NCBI GenBank assembly: GCA_002695025.1
Contig: NZNV01000001.1
Location: 248,001-312,000, forward strand
DNA: 64,000 nt
Reading direction: 5' to 3'
Source: Owenweeksia sp.
GTDB taxonomy: Bacteria > Bacteroidota > Bacteroidia > Flavobacteriales > Schleiferiaceae
In this document: positions 16,204 through 57,663 of the stretch, piece after piece
Layout: the number at the start of each line of letters is the position of its first letter
Position numbering within the stretch: position 1 is the stretch's first letter
The notes under the pieces: generated by a model
Told to the model about the DNA's origin: nothing
Database searches by the model: none
What the model saw: the letters and a program-made list of their open reading frames with translations, nothing else
Translations under genes and position numbers: made by a program

Positions 16204-18618
16204 TTAGTACAGTGCCGGGTATTGTTCCGGGTTTGCTTCGTTCATGATGCTATATATGACCTCAAAAATATCGTCAACGGAAGGTTTACTGAAGTAGTCA
16301 CCGTCCGTGCCATAAGCCGGCCTGTGCGCTTTGGCGGTAAGCGTTACCGGTTTACTGTCCAGGTAGCGGTAGGCACTTTGTTCTTCCAGGATCTGTTGGA
16401 GGATAAAAGCACTGGCTCCTCCTGGGACGTCTTCATCCAGCACCAGCAGTCGGTTGGTGTTTTGTACACTTTCCACAATGTGATGGTTCACATCAAAAGG
16501 GAGCAGGGATTGCACATCGATCACTTCTACGGAGATACCGAAGTCCATCAATTGTTCCGCGGCTTCCATGGCCAAGCGGCAATTGCTTCCGTAGGTTACC
16601 AGGGTAATATCGGTACCGGTACGGATGGTTTCCGGAATACCCAGTGGGGTGCGTAATTCTCCCAGGTTGGAAGGCATTTTTTCCTTGAGGCGATAACCAT
16701 TCAGGCATTCAATGATAAGAGCGGGATCATCAGAATCCAGCATAGTATTGTAAAAGCCGGCTGCCTTCGTCATGTTGCGTGGCACCAGGATATGAATACC
16801 GCGTAAAGCGTTGATAATGGTACCCATGGGTGAACCACTGTGCCAGATACCTTCCAGGCGGTGGCCGCGCGTACGTACGATCAACGGTGCCTTTTGCCCT
16901 CCTTTGGTACGGTATTGTACGGTAGCCAGGTCATCACTCATGATCTGCATGGCGTACAGGAGGTAATCCAGGTACTGGATCTCTGCAATAGGGCGTAAGC
17001 CACGCATGGCCATGCCAATTCCCTGACCGAGAATGGTAGCCTCCCGGATTCCGGTGTCTGAAACACGGGATTCCCCGTGCTTGGCCTGCAGGCCTTCCAG
17101 TCCCTGGTTTACATCACCAATCTTACCGCTGTCTTCACCAAAAATGAGAACGTTGCTATGCTCCGCCAGGAGGCGGTCAAAATTCTCACGGAGAATAATA
17201 CGGGCGTCTACTTCTTCAGCATCCTCATCGTAAGAAGCCTCTACAGCATTAATGTGCATAGGGCTGCTTTCAGACTGGCTGGTGAGGTAATCATTATAGC
17301 GATCCTGGTTGATAGACTTAGCATTTTCCAACCAGGCTTTAAGCTCATCTTTTTTGGAATGATCCGTTTGGATCAGGTAACGTAAGGCTTCACGGGCTGC
17401 GGAAACAGCATCCTTATGCAGCGGGTCTGTAGAAGAGCGCATTGCGGAAGCCAGTTCTTTCAACCTGTCCGGCCTGGAACTAGCTTCAGCCAGGTCTTCC
17501 AATAGGGAAGCTACTTCATTCACTTCTTCCTTTATAGGCGCCAGGAACTCTTTCCAGGCGTTGGCCTTAGCCGTACGTGCGGCTTGTTTGGCTTCTTTTT
17601 CAATATCATCCAGTTCCTCTTCTGTAAAGAGGTCATGCTGGATGATCCATTCACGCATCTTACGGATGCAGTCAAAGTCTTTTTCCCAACTCAGGCGGGC
17701 TTCATTCTTATAGCGTTCATGCGAACCGGAGGTAGAGTGCCCCTGGGGTTGGGTCATTTCACGGACGTGGATCATTACCGGCACATGCTCCTCCCGGGCT
17801 ATACGTTCCGCCTTTTCATACGCCTCAATAAGGCCGCTGTAATCCCAGCCTTTAACGCGGATGATCTCAAATCCGTTCTGATCGTCTGAACGTTGGAAAC
17901 CCTTAAGGATCTCCGAAATATTTTCTTTGGTAGTCTGGTATTTACTGTGCACCGAAATACCATAGTCATCATCCCAGATGGAGATCACCATAGGTACTTG
18001 CAGCACTCCGGCAGCATTAAAGGTTTCAAAGAAAAGGCCTTCACTGGTGGAAGCATTTCCGATGGTACCCCAGGCAATTTCATTGCCTTTTCTTGAAAAC
18101 CGGGTTTGATCGTGCAGTTCCTTAACATCCCGGTAAATCTTGGAGGCCTGTGCCAAACCCAGCAGGCGGGGCATTTGTCCGGCTGTAGGCGAGATGTCGG
18201 CCGAAGAGTTCTTTTGTGCTGTAAGGTCTTTCCAGTTACCGTTTTCGTCCAGGCTACGCGTAGCAAAGTGCCCGTTCATCTGGCGGCCCCCGGAAGCAGG
18301 TTCACGCTCCAGGTTGGTATCGGCATACAAGCTGGCAAAAAACTGTTGGGTAGTCAGTTCACCAATGGCCATCATAAAAGTCTGATCCCGGTAATAGCCG
18401 GAACGGAAATCACCATCTTTGAAAACACGGGCCCAGGCGATCTGTGCAACCTCCTTACCGTCACCGAATATTCCGAATTTGGCTTTGCCGGTTAATACTT
18501 CTCTGCGACCTATAAGACTGGCCTCACGGCTTTCCACAGCAAGGGAATAATCCTTCTGTACGTCCGCTTTAAACTTCTCCAATGTCAGTTTTTCTTCCTG
18601 TGTGCTGGTTTCACTCAT
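16204..18618 (-). CDS. 2-oxoacid dehydrogenase E1 component, fused alpha and beta subunits
   Basis: The 804-residue protein joins an E1 alpha-like half (about 1-400) and an E1 beta-like half (about 465-804), as is usual in Bacteroidota for the branched-chain-type complex. The thiamine pyrophosphate segment reads GNASTSEG (187-194) up to DDDYGIS (216-222), where stand-alone enzymes have GDG and NNGYAIS. The beta half shows IFGEDSGKIGDVNQGL, GIREATILGQGIGMA and RGHRLEGIWHSGSP. It should decarboxylate a branched-chain or similar 2-oxoacid and pass the acyl group to a lipoylated E2. No E2 or E3 gene is in the window. A large part of the alpha half (QKNSSADISPTAGQMPR) is the phosphorylation-loop region. 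Confidence 0.9.
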   Translation of the reverse strand: MSETSTQEEKLTLEKFKADVQKDYSLAVESREASLIGRREVLTGKAKFGIFGDGKEVAQIAWARVFKDGDFRSGYYRDQTFMMAIGELTTQQFFASLYADTNLEREPASGGRQMNGHFATRSLDENGNWKDLTAQKNSSADISPTAGQMPRLLGLAQASKIYRDVKELHDQTRFSRKGNEIAWGTIGNASTSEGLFFETFNAAGVLQVPMVISIWDDDYGISVHSKYQTTKENISEILKGFQRSDDQNGFEIIRVKGWDYSGLIEAYEKAERIAREEHVPVMIHVREMTQPQGHSTSGSHERYKNEARLSWEKDFDCIRKMREWIIQHDLFTEEELDDIEKEAKQAARTAKANAWKEFLAPIKEEVNEVASLLEDLAEASSRPDRLKELASAMRSSTDPLHKDAVSAAREALRYLIQTDHSKKDELKAWLENAKSINQDRYNDYLTSQSESSPMHINAVEASYDEDAEEVDARIILRENFDRLLAEHSNVLIFGEDSGKIGDVNQGLEGLQAKHGESRVSDTGIREATILGQGIGMAMRGLRPIAEIQYLDYLLYAMQIMSDDLATVQYRTKGGQKAPLIVRTRGHRLEGIWHSGSPMGTIINALRGIHILVPRNMTKAAGFYNTMLDSDDPALIIECLNGYRLKEKMPSNLGELRTPLGIPETIRTGTDITLVTYGSNCRLAMEAAEQLMDFGISVEVIDVQSLLPFDVNHHIVESVQNTNRLLVLDEDVPGGASAFILQQILEEQSAYRYLDSKPVTLTAKAHRPAYGTDGDYFSKPSVDDIFEVIYSIMNEANPEQYPALY

Positions 18619-18776: not shown

Positions 18777-21635
18777 TTAATAATAACCTCTTCGGATGCG
18801 TTCCATGATCTTGCCAAAATCGGCATTGAGTACAAAACGGATGGAGTTGTAATAAGCGGATTGGGTAAGGAAATTACTATCCTGGTTAGCAAAGGGAAAG
18901 TAAAACTCGAGGAAATCGGTAAAAACAGCTACCCGCACTCCGTAATCCCAGTAAGGTCCTTTGCCATCCACCAGGCCAATATCTCCGAACACACCAAAGG
19001 CTGTCCAGATGGGAACGGATAATCCGGAGGTGAGGATATACTGATCTGAGAATACGTTGGTTCCACTTTTGAAGCCTCCATCGGTAACAAAGAACTGCTG
19101 GCTCCAAATTCCACTTTGTTCGGAACGCCCTATGAAGGTATAGTCAAACAAATAATCCTGGGTGCCACTCAGGCCAAAGCTGTAATAATTACCGTTGATC
19201 CCTTTTTGTGAATATTCATTGTTCAGGAAGACGCCTGCAAACTGGCGCCAGATCAGCCAGCGTTTGTTCGGCAGCATCCAGCGCAGATCAGCTTCAGCAG
19301 AAAGCCGGCTGAACTGGTCCCCGTATTGGAAATCTACGTTGAGAGTAACGGGATTAAGAACGTTGATATCCTCATAGGTATAGTTGGTGGTAAGTACTGT
19401 ATAGCTGGCGTTGCTGATCTCGTTCTGTATACCTTCAAACAGAAGTGGGAGCTCGCGCTCTACACTAACTCCCCGCAGGCGCATCTTTTGCAGTACCGTG
19501 CTCTCTGCGTACTTTCTGCGGAAGTAAAAGCTTACGGAAGGCGATAAGCGTGTATAGGCAAGGTCTTCATCGTAGTGGTAATACCGGCCAAATATACCGG
19601 TGGAAATACGGTGGAAGGGGCCACCCTCCGGGATGAAATTATACAGGGCGCTGGCATAGCCTGTGATGGACCCGGTTCCGGTAGAATACTCCGGCCCGAT
19701 CACGTACTCAAAAGGCTTATTTACAAAGGTGTTGCTGTTATACAAAGAGATGCCCATTAGCAACTGATCGTAGGCATTATAGTTGGCCGTAGGCATCCAA
19801 TACAACTGGGTTTTGCGGGGATTTTCAAAACTGGTGAAGAACTGCAACCTAAGGGGTTCGGCTTTTTTAAAGAGCCCATGGGTGCGCATGCTGTTATTCT
19901 TCTGGCTAAACTCAGGGGTAGTCTGGTGGTAATTGATGATCACTTTATCGTAATCCTCATGGTACATCTGCACCGTTTTTTTACCCTGATGTCCGGGAAA
20001 CCACTCGGTGATCACTACTTTATCATCCTTGATACCCGTGAGGGAATAAGGCGTAGGGGCAGAACCTTTATTTTCAACGGTTACAGTGGTCACCGTAGGG
20101 CAATGGTCAACATCCAGCAGGGCATAGTCATTTTTAGGAGCCTGCTCCACCAGGGCGTCAAAAAACCAGGAAACATCCTGGTAGAAATAGTAAGAAATGC
20201 TCTTCCGGAGATCCTGAGGTTTAGATTGGGTCCCCCGGTTTTCCAGGTAATACTTCCGCATGGCGCGGTTAAAAGCACGTTCACCGGCATATTCTTTAAG
20301 ATGGCTCAGAGCCAGGTAGGTCTTCCCTTGGGCGGAGGCTTCATAATTGAGGCGGCTGAGTGAGTCTGCCGGAGTTCCCATTGGCTGATCCAGCCCCTGG
20401 CGGGCGAGGAAAAGAAAGAGTAGCTGGTTTTGAAAGGCATAATCAAACTCATCCAGCTCAAAAAAACGACCTACAAAAGAATTGCTGAAGGGAAGCCATT
20501 TCTTTTCCGGGTATTGGGTTTTGATGAACTCATATTTGTAGAAATAGGGGATACCACGAGCCAGCCACACATTTTTGAATCCATCAGGTGCCATTTGATA
20601 GCGGAATAGCTGCTCAGCCCGCGCATGGGCAAGATTGGAGGCCAGTTCAAAAGTGGAAGATGGATATTCCAGGCTTAAGACGTGGTCACTCTGGAATTCT
20701 CCTTCTTTTTCATCGAGTATCACCAGGTCATAGGATCGTGAAAAATCATCCCCGATCTGTCCGGCCAGGAAATCATTCACATTTTGATCCAGTCCTTTAA
20801 GGATAGAAGGAATATAGGGGTCACTATCGGTAATATAAAGGTCTACACTATCCCGCACCGGGAATAGATAGAACTGATCCGAAATGTAGAATTGCAATGA
20901 GGTGGTGCCAGGATGATGGAAGCTAAGGGTTTTGCGCTTTACAGGCGAGGTACTCCGTTCCTGAAAAGGACTGCTACGCATTTGCTCCAGCCTGGACAGT
21001 TCCCCGGGTGTTTGCAGGGTAGCATTGCTTACTACCACCATATCATCATCCAGAGAAAGCGTTACATGGTATTCATCAAAACTTTGGTAGAGATCATTTT
21101 GGTAAGTAACGGGATTCAGGTGCCAGCCGGCCGAGTCCAACATAGCAATACGTGGCAACCAGTTAATAATGCGGTACACTTTACCGTCATAGCCGGTACC
21201 ATTGAAATGGGCTTCAGGCAACAGGATCTGAAAATCCAGTTGAAGGGTAGCGGAATCTCCGGGCAATAAAGGATTGGCCAGAGGTATCCGTACAAATTCA
21301 CAATCGTCACAAACTTCAAATGGGCGGCCGTTAATTTCTGATCCTGAAATGGATATAGCTCCTTTCTCATTTTCATTCGCATAGTAAAGGTCTACATCCT
21401 GAAAGGCGGTGAACTGTTCCTGTAAAAGGGAACCACGCCACTCCATAGAGCGCGGAGGGAGGTGCAGGTATATATCACTTACTGCTTCGGAACTATAGTT
21501 GTGGAACAGAATATCTTGAGAGCCGCTAAGTGTTTTAAGACTATCGTTAAGGTTTAGGTTGATCTGGTAGGAGTGAGGCTGTGCGTATAATGCCAGTAAG
21601 AACCCCGAGAGGAAGAAAGAAAAGAAATAGCGCAA
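18777..21635 (-). CDS. M1-like (gluzincin) protein with degenerate zinc site and C-terminal barrel-like region
   Basis: The gene starts at TTG 21635, which gives a signal peptide (MRYFFSFFLSGFLLALYAQ). Residues about 20-560 follow the M1 aminopeptidase plan: an N-terminal beta saddle, then a catalytic-type domain with SLEYPS (320s, in the place of the GxMEN motif). The HExxHx18E zinc site appears as H337-A-R-A-E341 and, 19 residues on, R360 in WLARG where active enzymes have WLNEG. Two of three ligands and the general base are therefore lost. From about residue 630 the chain is a series of aromatic-rich amphipathic strands ending NADFGKIMERIRRGYY, like an outer-membrane beta-barrel. I infer a surface or periplasmic pseudo-peptidase. 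Confidence 0.8.
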   Translation of the reverse strand: MRYFFSFFLSGFLLALYAQPHSYQINLNLNDSLKTLSGSQDILFHNYSSEAVSDIYLHLPPRSMEWRGSLLQEQFTAFQDVDLYYANENEKGAISISGSEINGRPFEVCDDCEFVRIPLANPLLPGDSATLQLDFQILLPEAHFNGTGYDGKVYRIINWLPRIAMLDSAGWHLNPVTYQNDLYQSFDEYHVTLSLDDDMVVVSNATLQTPGELSRLEQMRSSPFQERSTSPVKRKTLSFHHPGTTSLQFYISDQFYLFPVRDSVDLYITDSDPYIPSILKGLDQNVNDFLAGQIGDDFSRSYDLVILDEKEGEFQSDHVLSLEYPSSTFELASNLAHARAEQLFRYQMAPDGFKNVWLARGIPYFYKYEFIKTQYPEKKWLPFSNSFVGRFFELDEFDYAFQNQLLFLFLARQGLDQPMGTPADSLSRLNYEASAQGKTYLALSHLKEYAGERAFNRAMRKYYLENRGTQSKPQDLRKSISYYFYQDVSWFFDALVEQAPKNDYALLDVDHCPTVTTVTVENKGSAPTPYSLTGIKDDKVVITEWFPGHQGKKTVQMYHEDYDKVIINYHQTTPEFSQKNNSMRTHGLFKKAEPLRLQFFTSFENPRKTQLYWMPTANYNAYDQLLMGISLYNSNTFVNKPFEYVIGPEYSTGTGSITGYASALYNFIPEGGPFHRISTGIFGRYYHYDEDLAYTRLSPSVSFYFRRKYAESTVLQKMRLRGVSVERELPLLFEGIQNEISNASYTVLTTNYTYEDINVLNPVTLNVDFQYGDQFSRLSAEADLRWMLPNKRWLIWRQFAGVFLNNEYSQKGINGNYYSFGLSGTQDYLFDYTFIGRSEQSGIWSQQFFVTDGGFKSGTNVFSDQYILTSGLSVPIWTAFGVFGDIGLVDGKGPYWDYGVRVAVFTDFLEFYFPFANQDSNFLTQSAYYNSIRFVLNADFGKIMERIRRGYY

Positions 21636-21651: not shown

Positions 21652-21659
21652 CAAATATA
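21652..21659 (-). promoter_or_regulatory. Possible -7 element of the M1-like gene
   Basis: On the minus strand this reads TATATTTG (TAnnTTTG), 16 bases before the TTG start at 21635, at the edge of the upstream terminator. The -33 region is occupied by the terminator stem. Confidence 0.4.
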
Positions 21660-21692
21660 AAAACAGCCTATCGCGAAACGACAGGCTGTTTT
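21660..21692 (-). terminator. Rho-independent terminator of the PspC operon
   Basis: Stem AAAACAGCCT / AGGCTGTTTT (10 bp) with a 13-base loop whose inner TCG/CGA can also pair. T runs flank both sides, so it can work in either direction. It lies 27 bases after the pspC-like stop codon at 21719. Confidence 0.8.
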
Positions 21693-21718: not shown

Positions 21719-23458
21719 TTAAAGGATTGAGTAAAACCGGTGTCCGGTTAAAGTGCTTTGATACATAGTTTTCGTTGGGGCCGCTAAAGCTTGCATTTGC
21801 TCAATTTCCGTGGTATCCGGTTCATGGCTTGGATCCGGAGCCTGAGTAGGATTTGCCGGTTCCTCAGGTTCCAGGGTTTTACGGCAATCCATACACTCCA
21901 GGCCTTCATCCGTCATTTTCCAGGTGTGGTCAATCATATCAAAATCCCACATATTACCTACGTTCTGGATATCGTAAATAATGTCTACCATATCCTGGCC
22001 CAGGTATACCGACTTACCCACCGGCAGGTAAAGCACCATAAATACTTCCTGATCACGGAAGGGTACCTCATCCGGCAGGAGATAATACGATGAGAAGCGG
22101 AGTTCATTAGACTGAGGTTGTTCTACTTCGTAAACTATGGACTCAGCATTATTACGGGCTATCCTGCGATTACCACCACGGGCCATAACCTTGGTTTTCA
22201 GGCGCATGATGCTATCGGATGACGGTTCAATATCAAAATACACTTTGGAAAAGGCATTGCCATTCTCAACCTGCATCCAGCCGGCAGCAAAACCATCTTC
22301 CTCAAAAAGGTGGTATACTTGGTCCTTCTGGATATGAAGGTTCATGAGATCATCAGGGTTTTCAATGATCTTTTCAGTAGTATAGAAAGAGCGGTCATCA
22401 AACTCAACCCCAATGCGGATACCCGCTATAAGGACCATAATAAATCCCACTATTGCGGCAAGTATCAATCCATTACGAACGGGGCTTCCCAGCCTGTCCA
22501 GCTTGAAGATGATCCTTACGCCCAGGTAAATGATGAGGGTAAGCGGTGCCAGTATAAGCAAGGCGGTACCGATCAGCACCAGGTTGAAATGAGCACTGCT
22601 CACCGTTACCAGGGAGATAAATTCAAACAGGTCACTGAAACCGTAGTTACTACCCATAAGATGGAAGCTGCCGGTAAAGAGCGCGGCTACCAGGGCAAAC
22701 AGAACAATAAAGCCAATAAAGATGAAGAAGAAGCCAATGAGTTTAAGGATGAAGCGCAATATGAGCTTCAGGGCCCTGATCACAAAATCAGCTACCTCAC
22801 GAAGGAAGTCACCAGCCTGACGGGTGGGCCTTTTATAGTCGTATTCAGACGCTCTACGGGTGAAATCCTTTACGTTCTTTCCCAGGCCGCTCATTTCATC
22901 GCGTATGGACTTTTCAATATTGGATATATTGACGGTTTCACCACGCATCTGGAGCTTTTCGGCTGTAGTGTTAGCCTTGGGAACCACCAGCCAGAGTACC
23001 AGGTAAAAAAGTACTCCAAAGCCGCTGAAAACCAAAACTATGATCAATAAGCGCATCCAGAGCGGATCGATGTTGAAATAGGCCGCCAGACCAGAAGCCA
23101 CACCACCCAGTATGCGATCATCCGGATCGCGGAAAATACGTTTCTTGGGTGTGTAAAAAGTGTCTTCGTAGGACTTACTTCCGGTATCTTCTTCAGGATC
23201 CAGGTAGTCTTCAGGTTTACCCATTATGGCAATCACCTCTTCTACATCCGCTGATGAAATAACTTCCTTAACCTTTCCGGTACGTTCACGAAAAAGTTCG
23301 GCAATGCGTACTTCGATGTCCCGAATGATCTCTTCTCCGCCTTCGGCTTTGGAGAATTGCCGCTTCAGGGTAGTAAGGTACCGCTCAAGGGTGTGATAGG
23401 CATCCTCATCTATATGAAAGATGAGTCCTCCCAGATTGATGTTCAATGTCTTATTCAT
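21719..23458 (-). CDS. PspC-domain membrane protein
   Basis: The 579-residue protein begins with a cytoplasmic region (MNKTLNINLGGLIFHIDEDAY, then EVRIAELFRER and IMGKPEDYLDPEED). A PspC domain follows at about 105-165, with DRILGGVASGLAAYFNIDP and a membrane helix ending LVVPKA. Three more hydrophobic stretches (about 228-262, 288-312, 330-350) and a large C-terminal domain that is probably extracytoplasmic (LMNLHIQKDQVYHLFEEDGF) complete it. The last part has a CMDC pair and a proline-rich tail. PspC proteins sense envelope stress. Here the gene lies two bases after a PadR repressor gene, a recurrent pair in Bacteroidota, which suggests PadR controls it. Confidence 0.88.
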   Translation of the reverse strand: MNKTLNINLGGLIFHIDEDAYHTLERYLTTLKRQFSKAEGGEEIIRDIEVRIAELFRERTGKVKEVISSADVEEVIAIMGKPEDYLDPEEDTGSKSYEDTFYTPKKRIFRDPDDRILGGVASGLAAYFNIDPLWMRLLIIVLVFSGFGVLFYLVLWLVVPKANTTAEKLQMRGETVNISNIEKSIRDEMSGLGKNVKDFTRRASEYDYKRPTRQAGDFLREVADFVIRALKLILRFILKLIGFFFIFIGFIVLFALVAALFTGSFHLMGSNYGFSDLFEFISLVTVSSAHFNLVLIGTALLILAPLTLIIYLGVRIIFKLDRLGSPVRNGLILAAIVGFIMVLIAGIRIGVEFDDRSFYTTEKIIENPDDLMNLHIQKDQVYHLFEEDGFAAGWMQVENGNAFSKVYFDIEPSSDSIMRLKTKVMARGGNRRIARNNAESIVYEVEQPQSNELRFSSYYLLPDEVPFRDQEVFMVLYLPVGKSVYLGQDMVDIIYDIQNVGNMWDFDMIDHTWKMTDEGLECMDCRKTLEPEEPANPTQAPDPSHEPDTTEIEQMQALAAPTKTMYQSTLTGHRFYSIL

Positions 23459-23460
23459 TG

Positions 23461-23790
23461 CTATTTGGTTTTTGTGGTTTTTTCTACTGCCTGTACAAGG
23501 TCGTTCCAGGTAGTATGTAATTCGTTTAGAACAGATCCGCCCTTATCAGTGAGCGAATAATATTTTCGGGGTGGGCCGGATTTGGATTCTTCCCATCGGT
23601 AGGAGAGGAGGTCGGCATTTTTAAGACGGGTGAGGAGGGGGTATAAGGTGCCTTCCACCACTATCATTTTGGCTTGCTTCAGATGCTCGATAATATCTGA
23701 AGCATAGGCATCCTCCCTCTCTAGCAGGGCCAGGATGCAAAGCTCCAACACACCTTTGCGCATCTGGGCTTTTGTATTTTCTATATTCAT
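23461..23790 (-). CDS. PadR-family transcriptional regulator
   Basis: The 109-residue protein is a short PadR of the PspC-linked type. It has the winged helix with KGVLELCILALLEREDAYASDIIEHL, the recognition part VEGTLYPLLTRLKNADLLSYRW, and the wing SGPPRKYYSLTDKG, followed by one dimerisation helix (WNDLVQAVEKT). It probably represses its own operon (lipoprotein, DUF4252, padR, pspC). A 10-bp palindrome lies in the promoter of the first gene of that operon and is a candidate operator. Confidence 0.92.
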   Translation of the reverse strand: MNIENTKAQMRKGVLELCILALLEREDAYASDIIEHLKQAKMIVVEGTLYPLLTRLKNADLLSYRWEESKSGPPRKYYSLTDKGGSVLNELHTTWNDLVQAVEKTTKTK

Positions 23791-24824: not shown

Positions 24825-25871
24825 TTAATCCAGATCGGTCATGGTGTGATTATACCGCTTCAAAAGCTGTTTGGCTTGCCTGATTAAAATGGGTTTTTCA
24901 CCCGTTTGAATCCTTTTTGCGGCCAGTTTATGCTGTAGTGCAAAGTGGTGAAGAAGTGACTTCCAGGCGTAGAAGAGCGAATGCCCGGGATCGTAAATAT
25001 GTGCGGGTTCTGAGTTGGCCCCGTTTACCTCAATGAGTGCCCAGTTCTGTAATTTTAAAAAGGTATCCCAACTGTCAAAGCGAATATCCATCCGGCCGTA
25101 TTCAAAACCGGGTAATTGGTTTGCAATTTGACTAAGGGTTGTACAGAGTTGAGTATCCCCTAAATGTGAAATGTCCCTGAAGCAGGTACCCAAACGGTGG
25201 TTGCCAATATCTTCCAGTTTAAGATATTTCCCGGCAGGGAGCACTGTTTTTAGATTGTATCGGTTGTTCTTTCGCCAGCGCTCCAATTGCAGGAATGCCC
25301 GGTCATTGGCCCGTATAAGTTGTTCGAGGTCCGAGCTTCCATCACCGGTAACTCCCAGAAATTCACGTTGCATAAGAGAACTTACTCTCCATTCCCTGTT
25401 TCCCGGGTCCCGTATTACAAAGGCCCCGATCTCCAAAGGATAGTCCAGGTAGGTTTGCAGGATAAAATCAAAATCAGGATGGGGATTCCAGTGCCTCAGA
25501 TCCTTTTCGGAGGCAATGATCTCAATACCCTTTCCCCGCATACCACGATCCGGCTTGGCTATCAAAGGGTAGGACATCCGTAGTTCCCTTATCCGCCTGG
25601 CCGTAAAGGAAGGATCGCTACCGGCCGGGTGAAACAAAGTAGCAGGCATAAAACCTTCCGGGGTTTTGGTATACATCTGCCACTTGGATTCTTCAATAAT
25701 ACCCCCGTATTCCATATAAGGGCGGTTGAGTACGGTTGGAAAGCTGAATCCTGAGCGCAGGCCATGCCAGAAATACTGGATAAAAAGTGGAATGTAAACG
25801 ATGCGCCAGGGCCAGTATTCCCAATTTAATGCCCGGATACGTAATGTACGCCAGCGGTCCCTGGCCCTCAT
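24825..25871 (-). CDS. ATP-grasp protein, D-alanine-D-alanine-ligase-like
   Basis: The 348-residue protein has ATP-grasp features: YPLIAKPDRGMRGKGIEII (lysine and glycine-rich loop), DFILQTYLDYPLEIGAFVIRD, and the metal site ALIEVNGANSEPAHIYDP (E-x-N). It probably joins an acid and an amine using ATP. The N-terminus is very basic with WPWRIVYIPLFIQYFW, which may bind the membrane. Substrates are unknown; it is not Ddl proper because the usual N-terminal lobe is missing. Its start overlaps the NRDE gene by four bases. Confidence 0.8.
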   Translation of the reverse strand: MRARDRWRTLRIRALNWEYWPWRIVYIPLFIQYFWHGLRSGFSFPTVLNRPYMEYGGIIEESKWQMYTKTPEGFMPATLFHPAGSDPSFTARRIRELRMSYPLIAKPDRGMRGKGIEIIASEKDLRHWNPHPDFDFILQTYLDYPLEIGAFVIRDPGNREWRVSSLMQREFLGVTGDGSSDLEQLIRANDRAFLQLERWRKNNRYNLKTVLPAGKYLKLEDIGNHRLGTCFRDISHLGDTQLCTTLSQIANQLPGFEYGRMDIRFDSWDTFLKLQNWALIEVNGANSEPAHIYDPGHSLFYAWKSLLHHFALQHKLAAKRIQTGEKPILIRQAKQLLKRYNHTMTDLD

Positions 25872-37117: not shown

Positions 37118-37175
37118 ATTTTTTGAATACGGCTTATTAAAAGGAAAGACTGTGGATTATTTAAAGACCATTTCT

Positions 37176-39389
37176 ATGAAAGGAAAGCTTAAAAATGCAA
37201 TTCTGCTTATTCTCATCACCCTTCAAATTCCCCTTCATGCCAAGGAAGGCATGTGGATACCCTATCTCATCAGCCAACTGAACCAGGATGAAATGGTGGC
37301 CATGGGTCTTGAAATAACCGCAGAAGATATTTACAGCGTTAACCAATCATCCATTAAAGACGCCATTGTTCATTTTAACGGAGGCTGCACGGCTGAGATC
37401 ATCAGCAATAAAGGGCTATTGCTGACCAATCACCACTGTGGTTATTCCCAGATACAAAAGCACAGTTCGGTAGAGAATAATTATTTAAAGAATGGATTTT
37501 GGGCCATGTCAGGTAGGGAAGAACTGAAGAATCCCGGTCTTACGGCTTCTATCATAAAATACATGGAGGATGTGACCAATGAGGTCTTACAAGATGTAAA
37601 TGACCAGATGAGCATTGCCGAACGGGAAGCAACGGTATCTGCTACCATTAAAAAGATATTGGAAGGACGAAAGAACAGTGAAGGTTATGAGCTGAAAATA
37701 AATCCGTTTTTTTATGGTAATCAGTACATTTTAATTGCTGAGGAAGTTTTCAGGGATGTACGCCTGGTAGGTGCCCCTCCATCTTCCATCGGGAAATTTG
37801 GTGCGGATACGGATAACTGGATGTGGCCCCGGCATACTGGTGATTTTTCAGTATTCAGGATCTATTCAGGTGCGGATAATAAGCCGGCAGATGTAGCGGA
37901 TGAGAATATTCCTTATAATCCCAATTACCATCTTAAGATAAATATTAGTGGGGTGCAGGAAAATGATTTCAGCATGATCTATGGTTTTCCGGGTTCTACC
38001 CAGGAATACCTTCCTTCTGCTGAAATTAAAAACACCATTGAAGTGTATGATCCAGCTCGTATTGCAGTACGTGAAAAGCTTCTCAGGATACTGGACCGTA
38101 AAATGCGTCAGAATGATGCCACCCGCATCCAGTATGCCTCTAAATATGCTTCTATAAGCAATTCCTGGAAGAAGTGGATTGGAGAAATAAAAGGTGTAAA
38201 GGAAACGGATGGGGTAGAGCGCAGGCAACAACTGGAAAACCAGTTTGAAGCTGCGTTGAATAAAGATGCGGTGCTAAGGGAGAAATACGGAGAGGTACTG
38301 GGCGAATTGAATAAGCTCTATGAGGAAAGAAAACCCCTGATGCTGGAGAGATATTACTATATAGAAATCGGCTACCTGGGTATTGAAGTGTTGCGCCACA
38401 TGCTGGGATATCGCTCTATGGTGCAGTATTACCAGGAAGATAAAGACAATGAATTACAGCAGAGAGCTTCGGAGATAGCCAATGGAATGGATAACTTTTA
38501 CAAGGATTTTGACGTGGAACTGGACCGGCAGGCCATGCAAGTCTTGTTGCCCATTTACCTGAAGGAAGTTTCTACTGAAGAAGTACCGGAATTGGTAAAA
38601 AAACTGAAGGAGATGGAGGATAAGGACCTCCGGGAGTATATTGACGAGTTGTATGAAGACCTGGTGGTTTTGGAAGACCCTTTGGAGTTCAGGGAGATGT
38701 TACAGAATAAGCCTTCCAAAGTAGCCCGGAAAATAGAAAAAAGTGATGCGTATCAACTGAGTTCCGCGATGTATGATCACTTTATTCGCGTTTTAAATCC
38801 CCGGGTTTCCGCTATTAATGATAAGATCGATTATTACCAGGGGCAGTATATTACTGCTATGCGCCAGGTATTTCCCATGAAGCGCTTTTACCCGGATGCC
38901 AACAGCACCCTTAGGGTAGCCTACGGTAAGGTGGAACCCTATGAGCCGCGTGATGCTGTTTACTATGAAACCCAGACCTACCTGGATGGGGTTATGGCCA
39001 AGTACATCCCCGGAGATTACGAATTTGACCTGCCCGTTAAACTTATAGAACTCTATAAGGATAAGGATTTTGGTCCGTACGGAGAGGATGATAAAATGCC
39101 AGTATGTTTTATTGCTTCCAACCATACCACCGGAGGTAATTCCGGCAGCCCGGCCCTTAATGGTAAAGGGGAATTGGTAGGTCTTAATTTTGACCGGGTA
39201 TGGGAAGGAACCATGAGTGACATCAATTACGATATCAGCCGTTGCCGTAACATTATGGTGGATATCCGCTACGTCCTGTTTATCATGGATAAGTTTGCAG
39301 GAGCCAAATACCTGGTGGACGAAATGGACCTGGTGTATAATCCGGTGGTCAATAAAGACGAGGAAATGAAGAAAGTACTGACGAATTAA
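37176..39389 (+). CDS. S46-family dipeptidyl peptidase, DPP11-like
   Basis: From ATG 37176 the 737-residue protein has a signal peptide (MKGKLKNAILLILITLQIPLHAK) and EGMWIP, the S46 start. The catalytic histidine is in TNHHCGY (86-87) and the nucleophile is Ser656 in GNSGSP. Arg674, 18 residues on (LNFDRVWEG), matches the arginine that sets Asp/Glu preference in DPP11, where DPP7 has glycine. It therefore probably removes dipeptides with acidic P1 residues from peptides in the periplasm. No T9SS domain is present. A longer start at GTG 37152 is less likely. Confidence 0.92.
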   Translation: MKGKLKNAILLILITLQIPLHAKEGMWIPYLISQLNQDEMVAMGLEITAEDIYSVNQSSIKDAIVHFNGGCTAEIISNKGLLLTNHHCGYSQIQKHSSVENNYLKNGFWAMSGREELKNPGLTASIIKYMEDVTNEVLQDVNDQMSIAEREATVSATIKKILEGRKNSEGYELKINPFFYGNQYILIAEEVFRDVRLVGAPPSSIGKFGADTDNWMWPRHTGDFSVFRIYSGADNKPADVADENIPYNPNYHLKINISGVQENDFSMIYGFPGSTQEYLPSAEIKNTIEVYDPARIAVREKLLRILDRKMRQNDATRIQYASKYASISNSWKKWIGEIKGVKETDGVERRQQLENQFEAALNKDAVLREKYGEVLGELNKLYEERKPLMLERYYYIEIGYLGIEVLRHMLGYRSMVQYYQEDKDNELQQRASEIANGMDNFYKDFDVELDRQAMQVLLPIYLKEVSTEEVPELVKKLKEMEDKDLREYIDELYEDLVVLEDPLEFREMLQNKPSKVARKIEKSDAYQLSSAMYDHFIRVLNPRVSAINDKIDYYQGQYITAMRQVFPMKRFYPDANSTLRVAYGKVEPYEPRDAVYYETQTYLDGVMAKYIPGDYEFDLPVKLIELYKDKDFGPYGEDDKMPVCFIASNHTTGGNSGSPALNGKGELVGLNFDRVWEGTMSDINYDISRCRNIMVDIRYVLFIMDKFAGAKYLVDEMDLVYNPVVNKDEEMKKVLTN

Positions 39390-53682: not shown

Positions 53683-56600
53683 ATGGCCAACCATACTTTG
53701 CTGCTGTTGCTGCGCAACAGTGGCCTGACCTTCCTTTGTGTTTTTATACTGTTTAACGAAGCTTTTGCCCAGCCGCTGGACGGCAATGATCAGGTGGATT
53801 CCACTGATTTTTACCGCCAGCCCTGGATTGGGAACAACCAGTATTTGTTCGATTACCGCGACTGGCTGGAGGGCTCTAAAAGTAAGACTTCAACCATTGC
53901 TCCTTATGGTGTGGATCAACAGGTTTATATACCGGTTAAAGCCTGGGTATATAGAAGCAATACAGGTTTGGGGGGATTGAGCTATGCCGATGTGGAATGG
54001 TATCTCCGGAAGCTGAACGAGATGTTTACCACCTACAATTCTACCGGCATCTATTTTTACCTAGTCTGTGAGCCTTACTACATCAATGATGAAGAGATCA
54101 GGAACGGTGCTGGTCCGGGAAAACGTGGCTGGGTATACTCAAATTACCGCGATCCCTACGTTTTGAATGTACATTTTGTAAATGATTTACCCGACCTGGC
54201 CGGGGAGGCCGTCTGGCCGTGGGGATCATCCAATATGGGCACCTTTGTCGAAACCGGAGAATCTCGCTCCACACAACATGCCAATACCCTGGCGCATGAA
54301 GCGGGCCATTGTTTGGGTTTGTTGCATACCCACCATGGAACCGGTACTACCTTTAATAAAGACGCTGAAAAGTGTAAACAGGAGTTTGTAAGCCGGCCCG
54401 CCCTTAACTCTTTTTTGTGGTGTGGCAACAATAAAAAGAAGTGTGAAGAATACGGGGACGGGCTATGCGATACAGAGGCGGATCCCGGCCTGGGGTTGGT
54501 TCGCTTAGGAGATCAGGTTAACAATGGGATATATGCAGGTGTTGGTACGGATAAGGATAGCCCGGGCCAGACCTGGGACCCTGATGTTGATTTAATCATG
54601 TCCTATTCTGAGTGGGATTTGCGGAACAGGTTTACCCCCATGCAGCAGGCGGTTATGTTATTCTACAGCACCATAAATACTCAGCCTTTTGCCACCGCAG
54701 AAGGTTTGGTGAACAACCAGAACCCGGACATTGATATTTATGAACCCAACAATACGGTTGATTTTGCAGAACGCCTTACGCTGAATAATGCCTTACAAGC
54801 CACCCTTCACGCTTCCAGGTACGGGCAGCCCACCTCAAACCTGGAGTCTAATTGTGACCAGGACTGGTATTGGTTTGCACCTGAGTATACGGCTAAATAT
54901 TCCATGAATACCCGTGCTATTGCCGGTGCACCACAACCTGATACCCGCATTTCAGTTTTTCACCCTTCAGATCTCACCACCCCCATAGCTTTTAATGACG
55001 ATATTAACGGTACCAACCAATTCTCACAGATCTCAGAAATTCAACTAAATAAGCATGTGGGATATCTTATACTGGTGGAGTCCAATAATACCAAGGGCCA
55101 TTACGAGATCAGTATTGAGGATTGTGGAGCGGATTGCTGCTATAACTCCCTTTTAGGCACCACTGATCAGATCAATAGTGCCACCGGTTCCTTCAATGTG
55201 GCAGTAAGGGTTTTAGGGGTAGAGGAGTATTTGGGAAACAGTATTACGGTAACGGATAAGTTATACTTCAATAACAGTTCTCCTTTAGGTTTTGGAGGAG
55301 GCGGAACCCCGCTTAGTTCATCTCACCTGGAAGCTGTTATTTGTAATAATTCAGAGATTGTGGTTGAAAATGGTGGGGAAATAATAGTAGGTTCTCCTCC
55401 CAGTTCTCAAACGGCTAAGGTTGCTTTTCAGTCGGGTACCAGCCTGCGCCTGAAGCAAGGTGGTAAACTTAAAATTGAGGATGGTTCGCAATTGATCGTA
55501 GCGGACGGTGCCAATCTCATACTGGAAGAAGGGGCCATTATAGAACTGCCTGACGATAATTCTGTATTGGAGATACAAGGCAAGCTGAGCGTAGCAGCCA
55601 ATGCGGATTTTACCTTTTCCGGCAATGGTCACCTGGTTTTTGATCAATCCGTTCCCTGGTCTGCCCAGGGCCCTGACCTGAGTGCCTATATGGACATTGG
55701 GCCGGGAGCCGGTTTTAGCGTACAAGGCCCGGTGGCCGATGATGACCATCATTTAGTGATGGAAGTGCGTCAGCCCCTGTATTTGCGGGATGGCCATAAT
55801 AACAGCTTTTCCCAGTTGCGGCTGGAGGATGGCACCATTGCAGTTTCGCCCGGAGCGCTGGTATATAGCTACAGCCCTACTACCATGCGGCATTGCAAAA
55901 TTACCACGCCAAACGGCAACGGTTGGCACGGAGGCTTCAGGATGTGGCACAACTACGGGCCTAACATTATAGAGGACAACCGTTTTGAACGTGGCTCCCC
56001 GGCTTTCCTGGCTCAATGGCCAGGGGGAGGGGACCCTATAAAACTGAAGCGTTGTGATTTTAACAATAACGTATACGGTGCCAAGGTGCTGGGTGGTAAT
56101 TTTACCGTACAGGATTGTAATTTTTACGATCACAGCCAGGAGGCCATCGTAGGATCGCAGTTGAGCGGTAATTCGGTGATCACCGGTTCAGACCTCAATA
56201 ATTATACGGATTATGGAACGGGTATCATTCTCTCCAGTCAGAGTGGTGCTGTGGTGACCGTATCCAAAACCAACGTCCGTAATTTTCATGAGGGGATGAG
56301 CATTACCAATTCGGTGAACGTGAAAAGTTTGTGCTCGGTATACGAGAGCAACGGTGAAAATGGTGTCCTGGTGGACTATGCCCACCTGTACCTTGACAAT
56401 TATGCCGGAAACCAGTTCCTGGATAACGGAACCATTCATATCAGGGTCAATACCGATGAACAGTTGTCAGCCGGCTTATACCTGAAGGATGGTTACAATA
56501 GTTTCTATTCCACTTCACCCACTTGCCGCAACTATATTTATTCCGGTACACCTGATGCTACTTTCGAGTCGGAATATACGGCCGGTGGAGATCTCAACTG

Positions 56601-57663
56601 CAACAACAATGAAATGCCGTTATGCAATCAGGGTTCGCCCTATGGTAACAGCATCCCGGTTTATATCCAGAATAATACGGTGGGGGTTCACATTCCCAAT
56701 AACCTTACGGACCCTCACTTGGTGGCCTGTAACAATTTTGCCCAGTCACCTCTGGAACATCCGTATAGCCAACTGATGATGAGTATCTCCACCAGCGGAG
56801 GTTCTGTAAATACGGGAGGAGGTTACGGTCCGCTCCATTCTGCGGTGAGTGATGCCCTTCAAAACCTTTCGTACGGTGAATATGAAGGAGAGGATCTCCA
56901 TGCCGTCAATGATCTTCAGAATATATTGAACACGAGCATCAGTAATGCGGATGTAAACACCCCGCAGATACTGGACCTGGCGTATAAAGGAATGATACAG
57001 GGGCTCAACAATGCCTACCAATACCGGCTGCTGGAACACAATGCCGGTAATCCCGAAGGGGAGTTGCCCGAAGAAATGACCGTTGCTATAGGGATAGCTG
57101 ACGGGCTTATCAGTGACCTGGGCAGTATTGACTCTTTAGAGATGTACCCGCATTTCCGTTATCAGCTGGATAAGACACATCTGTACAGGCTGGGCGGTTA
57201 TTATACGCAGGCCCTGGGTTTATTGGACGTTTCGGATAGTTGGGCACATACCTATGCACAGCAGGAACGGGCTTCCTATTGGAGTTGCGTGTGTACCGCT
57301 GAAAACGATTATTATACCGGTGTAATAGGGGCCGAAGCATTTTCCGAAGCCATCCAGACCTGCAACCTCACACATGCAGGTTATAATTATAAACGTCAGT
57401 CCCAGGGGAGCGATGAACAAGCTCCTGTATTTGATTATTACCCTCAGCCGGCAGGATACGCTTTAACGCTCTTCATGGAGCCCAGCCCTGGAAGGAACGT
57501 TAGCTACCATATATACAATGTAAGCGGACAGCTTGTGCAGGAAGGGAAATTAGCCTGGTCTTCCCGGGAACAGGAGGTTCTGGTTCATTCCTTAACGCCC
57601 GGTTTATATATCCTTTCCCTGGACCTGGATGAGCCCAGGAGACTCCGGTTTATGAAAAATTAA
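53683..57663 (+). CDS. Secreted metzincin protease (M43-like) with PPC, beta-helix-like region and T9SS domain
   Basis: The 1326-residue protein has a signal peptide (residues 1-29, cut at AFA-Q). The zinc site HEAGHCLGLLH (205-215) is the full metzincin HExxHxxGxxH motif. The Met-turn is IMSYSEWD (Met306), with many cysteines between, as in PAPP-A-like M43 peptidases. Residues about 348-482 match a pre-peptidase C-terminal domain (DIDIYEPNNTVDFAERL, DQDWYWFAPE). A long central region has a rhythm of strands (VEVENGGEI, KLKIEDGSQLIVADGAN, RHCKITTPNGNGWHGG), like a right-handed beta-helix. The C-terminus is a type A sorting domain (YNVSGQLVQEGKLAW, LTPGLYILSLDL). It is probably surface-bound. 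The gene follows the tandem lipoproteins. Confidence 0.9.
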   Translation: MANHTLLLLLRNSGLTFLCVFILFNEAFAQPLDGNDQVDSTDFYRQPWIGNNQYLFDYRDWLEGSKSKTSTIAPYGVDQQVYIPVKAWVYRSNTGLGGLSYADVEWYLRKLNEMFTTYNSTGIYFYLVCEPYYINDEEIRNGAGPGKRGWVYSNYRDPYVLNVHFVNDLPDLAGEAVWPWGSSNMGTFVETGESRSTQHANTLAHEAGHCLGLLHTHHGTGTTFNKDAEKCKQEFVSRPALNSFLWCGNNKKKCEEYGDGLCDTEADPGLGLVRLGDQVNNGIYAGVGTDKDSPGQTWDPDVDLIMSYSEWDLRNRFTPMQQAVMLFYSTINTQPFATAEGLVNNQNPDIDIYEPNNTVDFAERLTLNNALQATLHASRYGQPTSNLESNCDQDWYWFAPEYTAKYSMNTRAIAGAPQPDTRISVFHPSDLTTPIAFNDDINGTNQFSQISEIQLNKHVGYLILVESNNTKGHYEISIEDCGADCCYNSLLGTTDQINSATGSFNVAVRVLGVEEYLGNSITVTDKLYFNNSSPLGFGGGGTPLSSSHLEAVICNNSEIVVENGGEIIVGSPPSSQTAKVAFQSGTSLRLKQGGKLKIEDGSQLIVADGANLILEEGAIIELPDDNSVLEIQGKLSVAANADFTFSGNGHLVFDQSVPWSAQGPDLSAYMDIGPGAGFSVQGPVADDDHHLVMEVRQPLYLRDGHNNSFSQLRLEDGTIAVSPGALVYSYSPTTMRHCKITTPNGNGWHGGFRMWHNYGPNIIEDNRFERGSPAFLAQWPGGGDPIKLKRCDFNNNVYGAKVLGGNFTVQDCNFYDHSQEAIVGSQLSGNSVITGSDLNNYTDYGTGIILSSQSGAVVTVSKTNVRNFHEGMSITNSVNVKSLCSVYESNGENGVLVDYAHLYLDNYAGNQFLDNGTIHIRVNTDEQLSAGLYLKDGYNSFYSTSPTCRNYIYSGTPDATFESEYTAGGDLNCNNNEMPLCNQGSPYGNSIPVYIQNNTVGVHIPNNLTDPHLVACNNFAQSPLEHPYSQLMMSISTSGGSVNTGGGYGPLHSAVSDALQNLSYGEYEGEDLHAVNDLQNILNTSISNADVNTPQILDLAYKGMIQGLNNAYQYRLLEHNAGNPEGELPEEMTVAIGIADGLISDLGSIDSLEMYPHFRYQLDKTHLYRLGGYYTQALGLLDVSDSWAHTYAQQERASYWSCVCTAENDYYTGVIGAEAFSEAIQTCNLTHAGYNYKRQSQGSDEQAPVFDYYPQPAGYALTLFMEPSPGRNVSYHIYNVSGQLVQEGKLAWSSREQEVLVHSLTPGLYILSLDLDEPRRLRFMKN

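Follow-up and report, generated by a model that had tools for sequence, protein, structure and literature searches.

The window analysed here, a stretch of 64 000 nucleotides, carries at 18777..21635 (-) a gene of 952 codons with a TTG start, the product of which joins an M1 metallopeptidase fold to a membrane barrel (open reading frame and AlphaFold2 model). Coordinates are those of the window, and all features of this gene and its neighbours lie on the (-) strand. A signal peptide was assigned to residues 1-18 (21582..21635) from the sequence and from a helix at residues 2-17 of the AlphaFold2 model, with the cleavage site as our own reading. The mature protein, as read from the sequence, is predicted to start at Gln19 in a Q-rule-like manner; this rule of the Bacteroidetes, an N-terminal Gln after signal peptide cleavage, is described in PMC5837995. 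The neighbours were identified with Pfam and by locus comparison as a PspC-type envelope protein (21719..23458), a PadR regulator (23461..23790) and a fused E1 2-oxoacid dehydrogenase (16204..18618). Between the PspC gene and the M1-barrel gene, a consensus scan located a terminator-like hairpin of 15 pairs (21660..21692), which has the longest stem of the seven found (6.6 were expected in shuffles). It is accompanied by TATATTTG (21652..21659), which resembles the -7 box of Bacteroidota (consensus TAnnTTTG). Since the hairpin and the -7-like box separate the two genes, the M1-barrel gene probably has a promoter of its own, and the idea of a PspC operon, with its link to envelope stress, is weakened by the same two elements. 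The nearest named relative (L033, 75% identity) is from an uncultured Cryomorphaceae genome, and the second (L034) from a Flavobacteriales genome, which makes Flavobacteriales the most likely order of the host. A search for defence systems gave no match.

The AlphaFold2 model of the window protein (52 sequences; pLDDT 90.6, pTM 0.88) consists of an M1 fold followed by a barrel of 16 strands. The M1 fold, which an earlier note had proposed from the sequence, was supported by three comparisons: residues 19-610 matched tricorn factor F3 with a VIA Z of 30.8 (rmsd 3.1, 454 residues), Foldseek matched the protein to ERAP1 (E 1.4e-20), and a family profile that included intact members found an M1 enzyme in the PDB (E 1.9e-17). 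Further VIA scores were obtained for E. coli aminopeptidase N (Z 28.1), ERAP1 (27.7) and LTA4 hydrolase (27.1). Taken alone, the window protein scored 18 bits against Pfam PF01433, below the gathering score of 27.7; 32 of the 52 members matched Pfam M1 at E <= 0.01. Generic NCBIfam models for aminopeptidase N or LTA4 hydrolase were found for up to 16 of the 52 (curated cut-offs unchecked), and none of these models matched the window protein.

From the N terminus, the layout comprises an M1 N-terminal beta domain (residues 20-268, 20832..21578), an M1 thermolysin-like domain with a dead site (residues 269-500, 20136..20831; both from AlphaFold2 and VIA, with boundaries as we read them), a small beta-rich linker domain (residues 501-590, 19866..20135; AlphaFold2), an outer-membrane-type barrel (residues 606-936, 18828..19820; AlphaFold2, 16 strands by our count) and a C-terminal helix (residues 940-948, 18792..18818; AlphaFold2). 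The barrel strands that the same note had seen in the C-terminal 300 residues were thus borne out and extend over about 350 residues of the model. A loop of 60 residues between strands 11 and 12 (DYLFDY..GRS..SQQ..DGGFKS; 19041..19217) was delimited with the model and the alignment. When the intact homologue L082 was modelled (pLDDT 88.9, pTM 0.86), the same layout and barrel topology were obtained, and the last barrel strand is short in the secondary structure of both models. An even number of strands, together with the placement of the longest loops (three of them) at turns of the odd-even kind, suggests that the M1 domain is periplasmic.

The active site was compared over 136 aligned rows, of which 67 have an intact site, 68 have a dead one and 1 is unreadable (L198). 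As had been read from the sequence, H337-A-R-A-E341 (20613..20627) and R360 (20556..20558) of the window protein occupy the HExxHx18E columns of the intact homologues, R360 in the column of the third zinc ligand Glu, so that H337 is kept and E338, H341 and E360 are absent. Q436 (20328..20330) stands in the column of the catalytic Tyr of M1 enzymes. Two zinc ligands, the catalytic Glu (A338 here) and the catalytic Tyr are thereby replaced in the window protein. The Tyr column holds Tyr in 67/67 intact and 0/68 dead homologues; a Tyr one residue further on occurs in 26/68 dead rows, and the window protein has Gly there. The GGMEYP strand of the intact homologues (the GxMEN type) fared similarly, its Glu being present in 66/67 intact vs 9/68 dead rows. 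In the window protein these columns hold E313-F-Q, with E313 (20697..20699) in the Glu column and the remaining motif lost, and the substrate strand is degraded in this gap-rich alignment. The LEYP that had been taken for a surviving strand next to the site is present at residues 322-325; it is not, however, aligned with the GxMEN-type strand, because GGMEYP aligns to E313-F-Q (an assignment of which we are moderately sure, given the gaps). Across the 68 dead homologues no HExxH was found anywhere, one zinc ligand is kept in 11 rows and two of the three in none, and the dead site columns of the alignment are without any shared replacement. The loss of catalytic features in the window protein and throughout its clade supports the reading as a pseudo-peptidase; the proposed role in peptide binding or envelope biogenesis is plausible for the window protein.

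In the class, 198 genomes were sampled, and the barrel profile matched 142 of them at E <= 0.01, with a single match in 135 of the 142 and matched frames mostly near 1000 amino acids. Within the host order, 110 of 148 genomes matched the whole M1-barrel protein or part of it, a count that takes in an M1 paralogue lacking the barrel (about 600 amino acids). The genome of the window also carries this paralogue, with its site intact, and no second barrel gene was found in it with the barrel profile at E up to 10. How often the ligands are lost had been left by the earlier note to a survey of homologues: 68 of the 135 readable sites are dead and 67 intact. Outside the host order, 51 of 52 rows are intact (12 tree rows plus 40 loci, each from a different further family and chosen by us from the barrel-profile matches), and the 83 rows from within the order divide into 67 dead and 16 intact. 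The 40 further families gave 39 intact sites and one dead (L266 of family f89), with R-M-V-A-N for HExxH, the third-ligand Glu kept and Arg in the Tyr column. Among the rows read, families f2, f3, f4, f6, f12 and f13 are dead only and f5, f7, f11 and f14 intact only (several of these families being a single row), and both states occur within f1 and f15. The sample is weighted to f3 and f6, which supply 44 of the 68 dead rows. The dead frames are of full length (891-1028 amino acids). Two loci were left out of trees and counts: L112, a piece of 383 amino acids with an in-frame stop and part of the site missing, and L113, the site of which reads intact and for which there was no strong reason. 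Three versions occur side by side in genome G098, namely a dead one (L078), an intact one (L125) and an intact-type one broken over two frames (L126). Unusual lengths were seen in L259 (family f80), an M1-barrel frame of 1433 amino acids with an intact site, about 400 longer than the others, and in L127 and L128, frames of 1080 amino acids with an M1 part and HEIGH sites, in which the match to the query stops at residue 559.

Intact and dead forms share their surroundings. The order PadR-PspC-M1-barrel gene is found at five intact loci (L071, L081, L082, L093, L104) and at three dead ones (the window, L033, L065), and an E1 dehydrogenase gene comes next both at the intact L071 and at the dead window locus; among the 61 loci compared, the PspC cluster is near in 11 and the E1 cluster in 21. 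Because the neighbours are shared, the comparison supports orthology of the intact and dead forms. On the full-length tree (61 rows, site columns excluded) one change explains the site states. An outgroup-rooted tree, built from 35 of the 61 rows and two M1 proteins without a barrel match, with the site columns kept and under a long-branch warning, places the 18 dead rows in one supported clade among 17 intact rows. The active site was thus apparently lost once, in place, in the lineage of the host. Against one clean loss stand the barrel-only tree, which needs two changes (its well-supported, starred branches are compatible with one origin), the dead L266 outside the order and the mixed families f1 and f15. 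Separate losses could have been falsely grouped by the fast M1 branches of the dead rows.

Constraint was compared between the two domains as the ratio of M1 to barrel tree length on the fixed full-length topology within each clade. This ratio was 0.63 for the intact and 1.84 for the dead rows, and column resampling (30 resamples each) gave 0.64 (0.56-0.79) and 1.87 (1.65-2.20), respectively. Sub-clades (15 resamples each) were consistent with this, at 0.44 for intact f7 + f11, 0.57 for intact rows of other orders, 2.44 for dead f1 and 1.36 for dead f3. Positions conserved to at least 85% numbered 127/481 in M1 and 15/358 in the barrel of the intact rows, and 11/481 and 47/358 in those of the dead rows. 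The loop between strands 11 and 12 is the most conserved part among the dead rows; it holds 14 of the 47 conserved barrel positions, and R837 of its GRS is nearly invariant. After loss of the site, constraint is reversed, with a roughly threefold shift from M1 to the barrel and its loop. Purifying selection still acts on both domains in 18 closely related dead pairs, at dN/dS values of 0.04-0.11 in M1 and 0.004-0.05 in the barrel. The 22 closest pairs included 21 dead ones, and these 18 are those among them with a usable dS; they come from families f3 and f6 only, and several dS values exceed 1. With dN/dS this low in these pairs, neither domain is freely decaying. The window protein and L033 were too distant for dS.

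In its layout the barrel is Omp85-like in the model, with 16 strands and a long loop 6 between strands 11 and 12, features that other families can share. DUF5686 and Omp85 barrels have the same strand number and the same long loop, and hhalign gave in-register global alignments of the barrel profile with DUF5686 (P 1.9e-6, prob 79%) and with PF01103 proteins of 680-740 amino acids (P 1e-5, prob 62%). The PF01103 proteins were grouped by length, on which any BamA or TamL label rests (TamL for the group of 680-740). Those below 600 amino acids matched weakly (P 0.0011), and those of 780-880 amino acids (P 0.027, 10 columns) and Omp85_2 (P 0.7) did not match; reversed-sequence controls gave P 0.017-0.53, and other set cuts a prob of 0.0-41%. 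In the same test the Omp85 groups found one another at 84-100%, and DUF5686 did not. A search of solved structures with the barrel profile returned one match (E 1.3), and the VIA list for the full-length model is filled by M1 matches, so that the barrel does not appear in it. A PF01103 search of the own genome (E up to 0.1) gave five hits, with the M1-barrel gene not among them; in the Pfam scan of 52 barrels PF01103 matched 0/52, and DUF5686 matched 1/52 at E 0.065. The loop 6 motif of Omp85 is VRGF/Y; it is absent from the 60-residue loop, which has GRS instead. With weak sequence support and with PF01103 and VRGF/Y absent, the barrel was not assigned to the Omp85 superfamily. The window protein further differs from Omp85 proteins in carrying M1 and linker domains in place of the POTRA domains.

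Large M1 enzymes carry a C-terminal helical domain. The window protein shares the N-terminal beta and thermolysin-like domains with tricorn factor F3, E. coli aminopeptidase N, ERAP1 and LTA4 hydrolase, but it has lost the catalytic base and Tyr and all but one of the three zinc ligands, and its C-terminal half is a membrane barrel. Closest to it in architecture (as modelled for L082) are the intact M1-barrel orthologues of the class, several of which have the same neighbourhood; they differ in having a site of the HEVGHNWFYG...WMDEG type plus Tyr, and in that M1, not the barrel, is their conserved part. TAF2 of TFIID, which has an M1 fold and is said to be inactive as a peptidase, resembles the window protein in this respect but is eukaryotic, nuclear and without a barrel; the literature search returned no paper on it. 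A further comparison involves PF00149, a metallophosphatase family. In the 'Metallo' subfamily of Omp85, for which Heinz and Lithgow (2014) describe a metalloprotease domain before an outer-membrane barrel, a domain likewise precedes the barrel, but it is PF00149 and not M1 (PMC4104836). For M1 peptidases with a barrel or Omp85 in Bacteroidetes, neither a description nor a function was found in the open-licence literature, in agreement with the earlier note, which knew of no function for such a form. 'Peptidase' occurs nowhere in the main text of a paper on the F. johnsoniae BAM (PMC12611786), and twice in the accessible text of a TamL paper, both times as signal peptidase (PMC12045153).

The best explanation, to which we give about an even chance, is that of a protein combining an M1 metallopeptidase with an outer-membrane barrel, in which the site was lost, the conserved function rests with the barrel and its loop, and the M1 domain is a non-catalytic binding or docking module. 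The ancestor would most likely have been a periplasmic M1 peptidase anchored by its barrel, and the relatives across the class are predicted from their intact sites to be active, membrane-anchored M1 peptidases. In the host lineage, loss of the active site, apparently once and in place, would have left the job of the barrel, with the barrel and the 60-residue loop as the conserved working part. The periplasmic M1 domain may then capture or dock a polypeptide or a partner without cutting it, and the barrel with its loop may act as a gated conduit or help in export or in assembling the outer membrane; these roles in transport, assembly and binding are all inferred. The few M1 positions conserved in the dead rows (11/481) fit a mere scaffold better than a specific ligand shared by all of them. 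That the peptidase site was lost while the barrel stayed well conserved suggests that the protein changed jobs in the lineage of the host.

Several other readings use the same observations. The barrel might be a pore for peptide uptake or efflux, at the periplasmic mouth of which the ancestral M1 domain trimmed peptides, with the dead lineage keeping the pore and the domain as its gate. Fusion of an intact M1 domain to a barrel would suit such trimming and the move of constraint to the barrel after site loss agrees with it, but the long conserved loop between strands 11 and 12 may close the lumen; we hold this as possible, though on the unlikely side. Were the M1 domain a structural remnant that binds nothing and serves folding or stability, with the barrel as the functional part, a dead M1 tree 1.87 times the length of that of the barrel and so few conserved M1 positions would be expected; the low M1 dN/dS in the 18 close dead pairs and the full-length dead frames speak against such a remnant, and we regard it as doubtful. 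Migrated residues are said to occur in some pseudo-enzymes (PMC10211241), so that the protein might still be an enzyme, either with a metal site rebuilt by other residues or with a fold that catalyses another reaction. Residues rebuilding a zinc site, the finding that the earlier note had named as contrary to its reading, were not seen in the aligned sequences. With 0/68 dead proteins keeping two of the three ligands, no HExxH, no Tyr in its column and no shared replacement, a surviving enzyme is highly improbable.

The preferred reading, an M1-derived barrel protein with a non-catalytic M1 module, may be taken further. It is conceivable, as a tentative proposal, that the barrel belongs to an unrecognised family, present in most sampled genomes of the class, that serves export or the assembly of the outer membrane, with a periplasmic M1 peptidase in the position of POTRA domains, and that one large lineage went from peptidase to non-cutting polypeptide receptor. 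If so, what had been a protease would in that lineage have become a component of the envelope machinery that works like a chaperone. New here are the spread of the barrel, the split into intact and dead forms, the history of the site loss and the reversal of constraint. In a widespread protein a peptidase is joined to an outer-membrane barrel, and one large lineage lost the enzyme and kept the protein, with constraint shifting to the barrel. This natural experiment indicates that the barrel serves a purpose independent of the peptidase, one that can be tested in a laboratory strain.

Three other genes of the window were noted. The gene at 24825-25871 (-) has a weak tubulin-tyrosine-ligase-like match below the cut-off and a weak cyanophycin-synthetase-like match. 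The gene at 53683-57663 (+) encodes a protein of 1326 amino acids that carries a type IX secretion C-terminal domain, beyond which Pfam gave nothing at E <= 0.001, and that at 37152-39389 (+) encodes a Peptidase S46 (E 2.6e-230).
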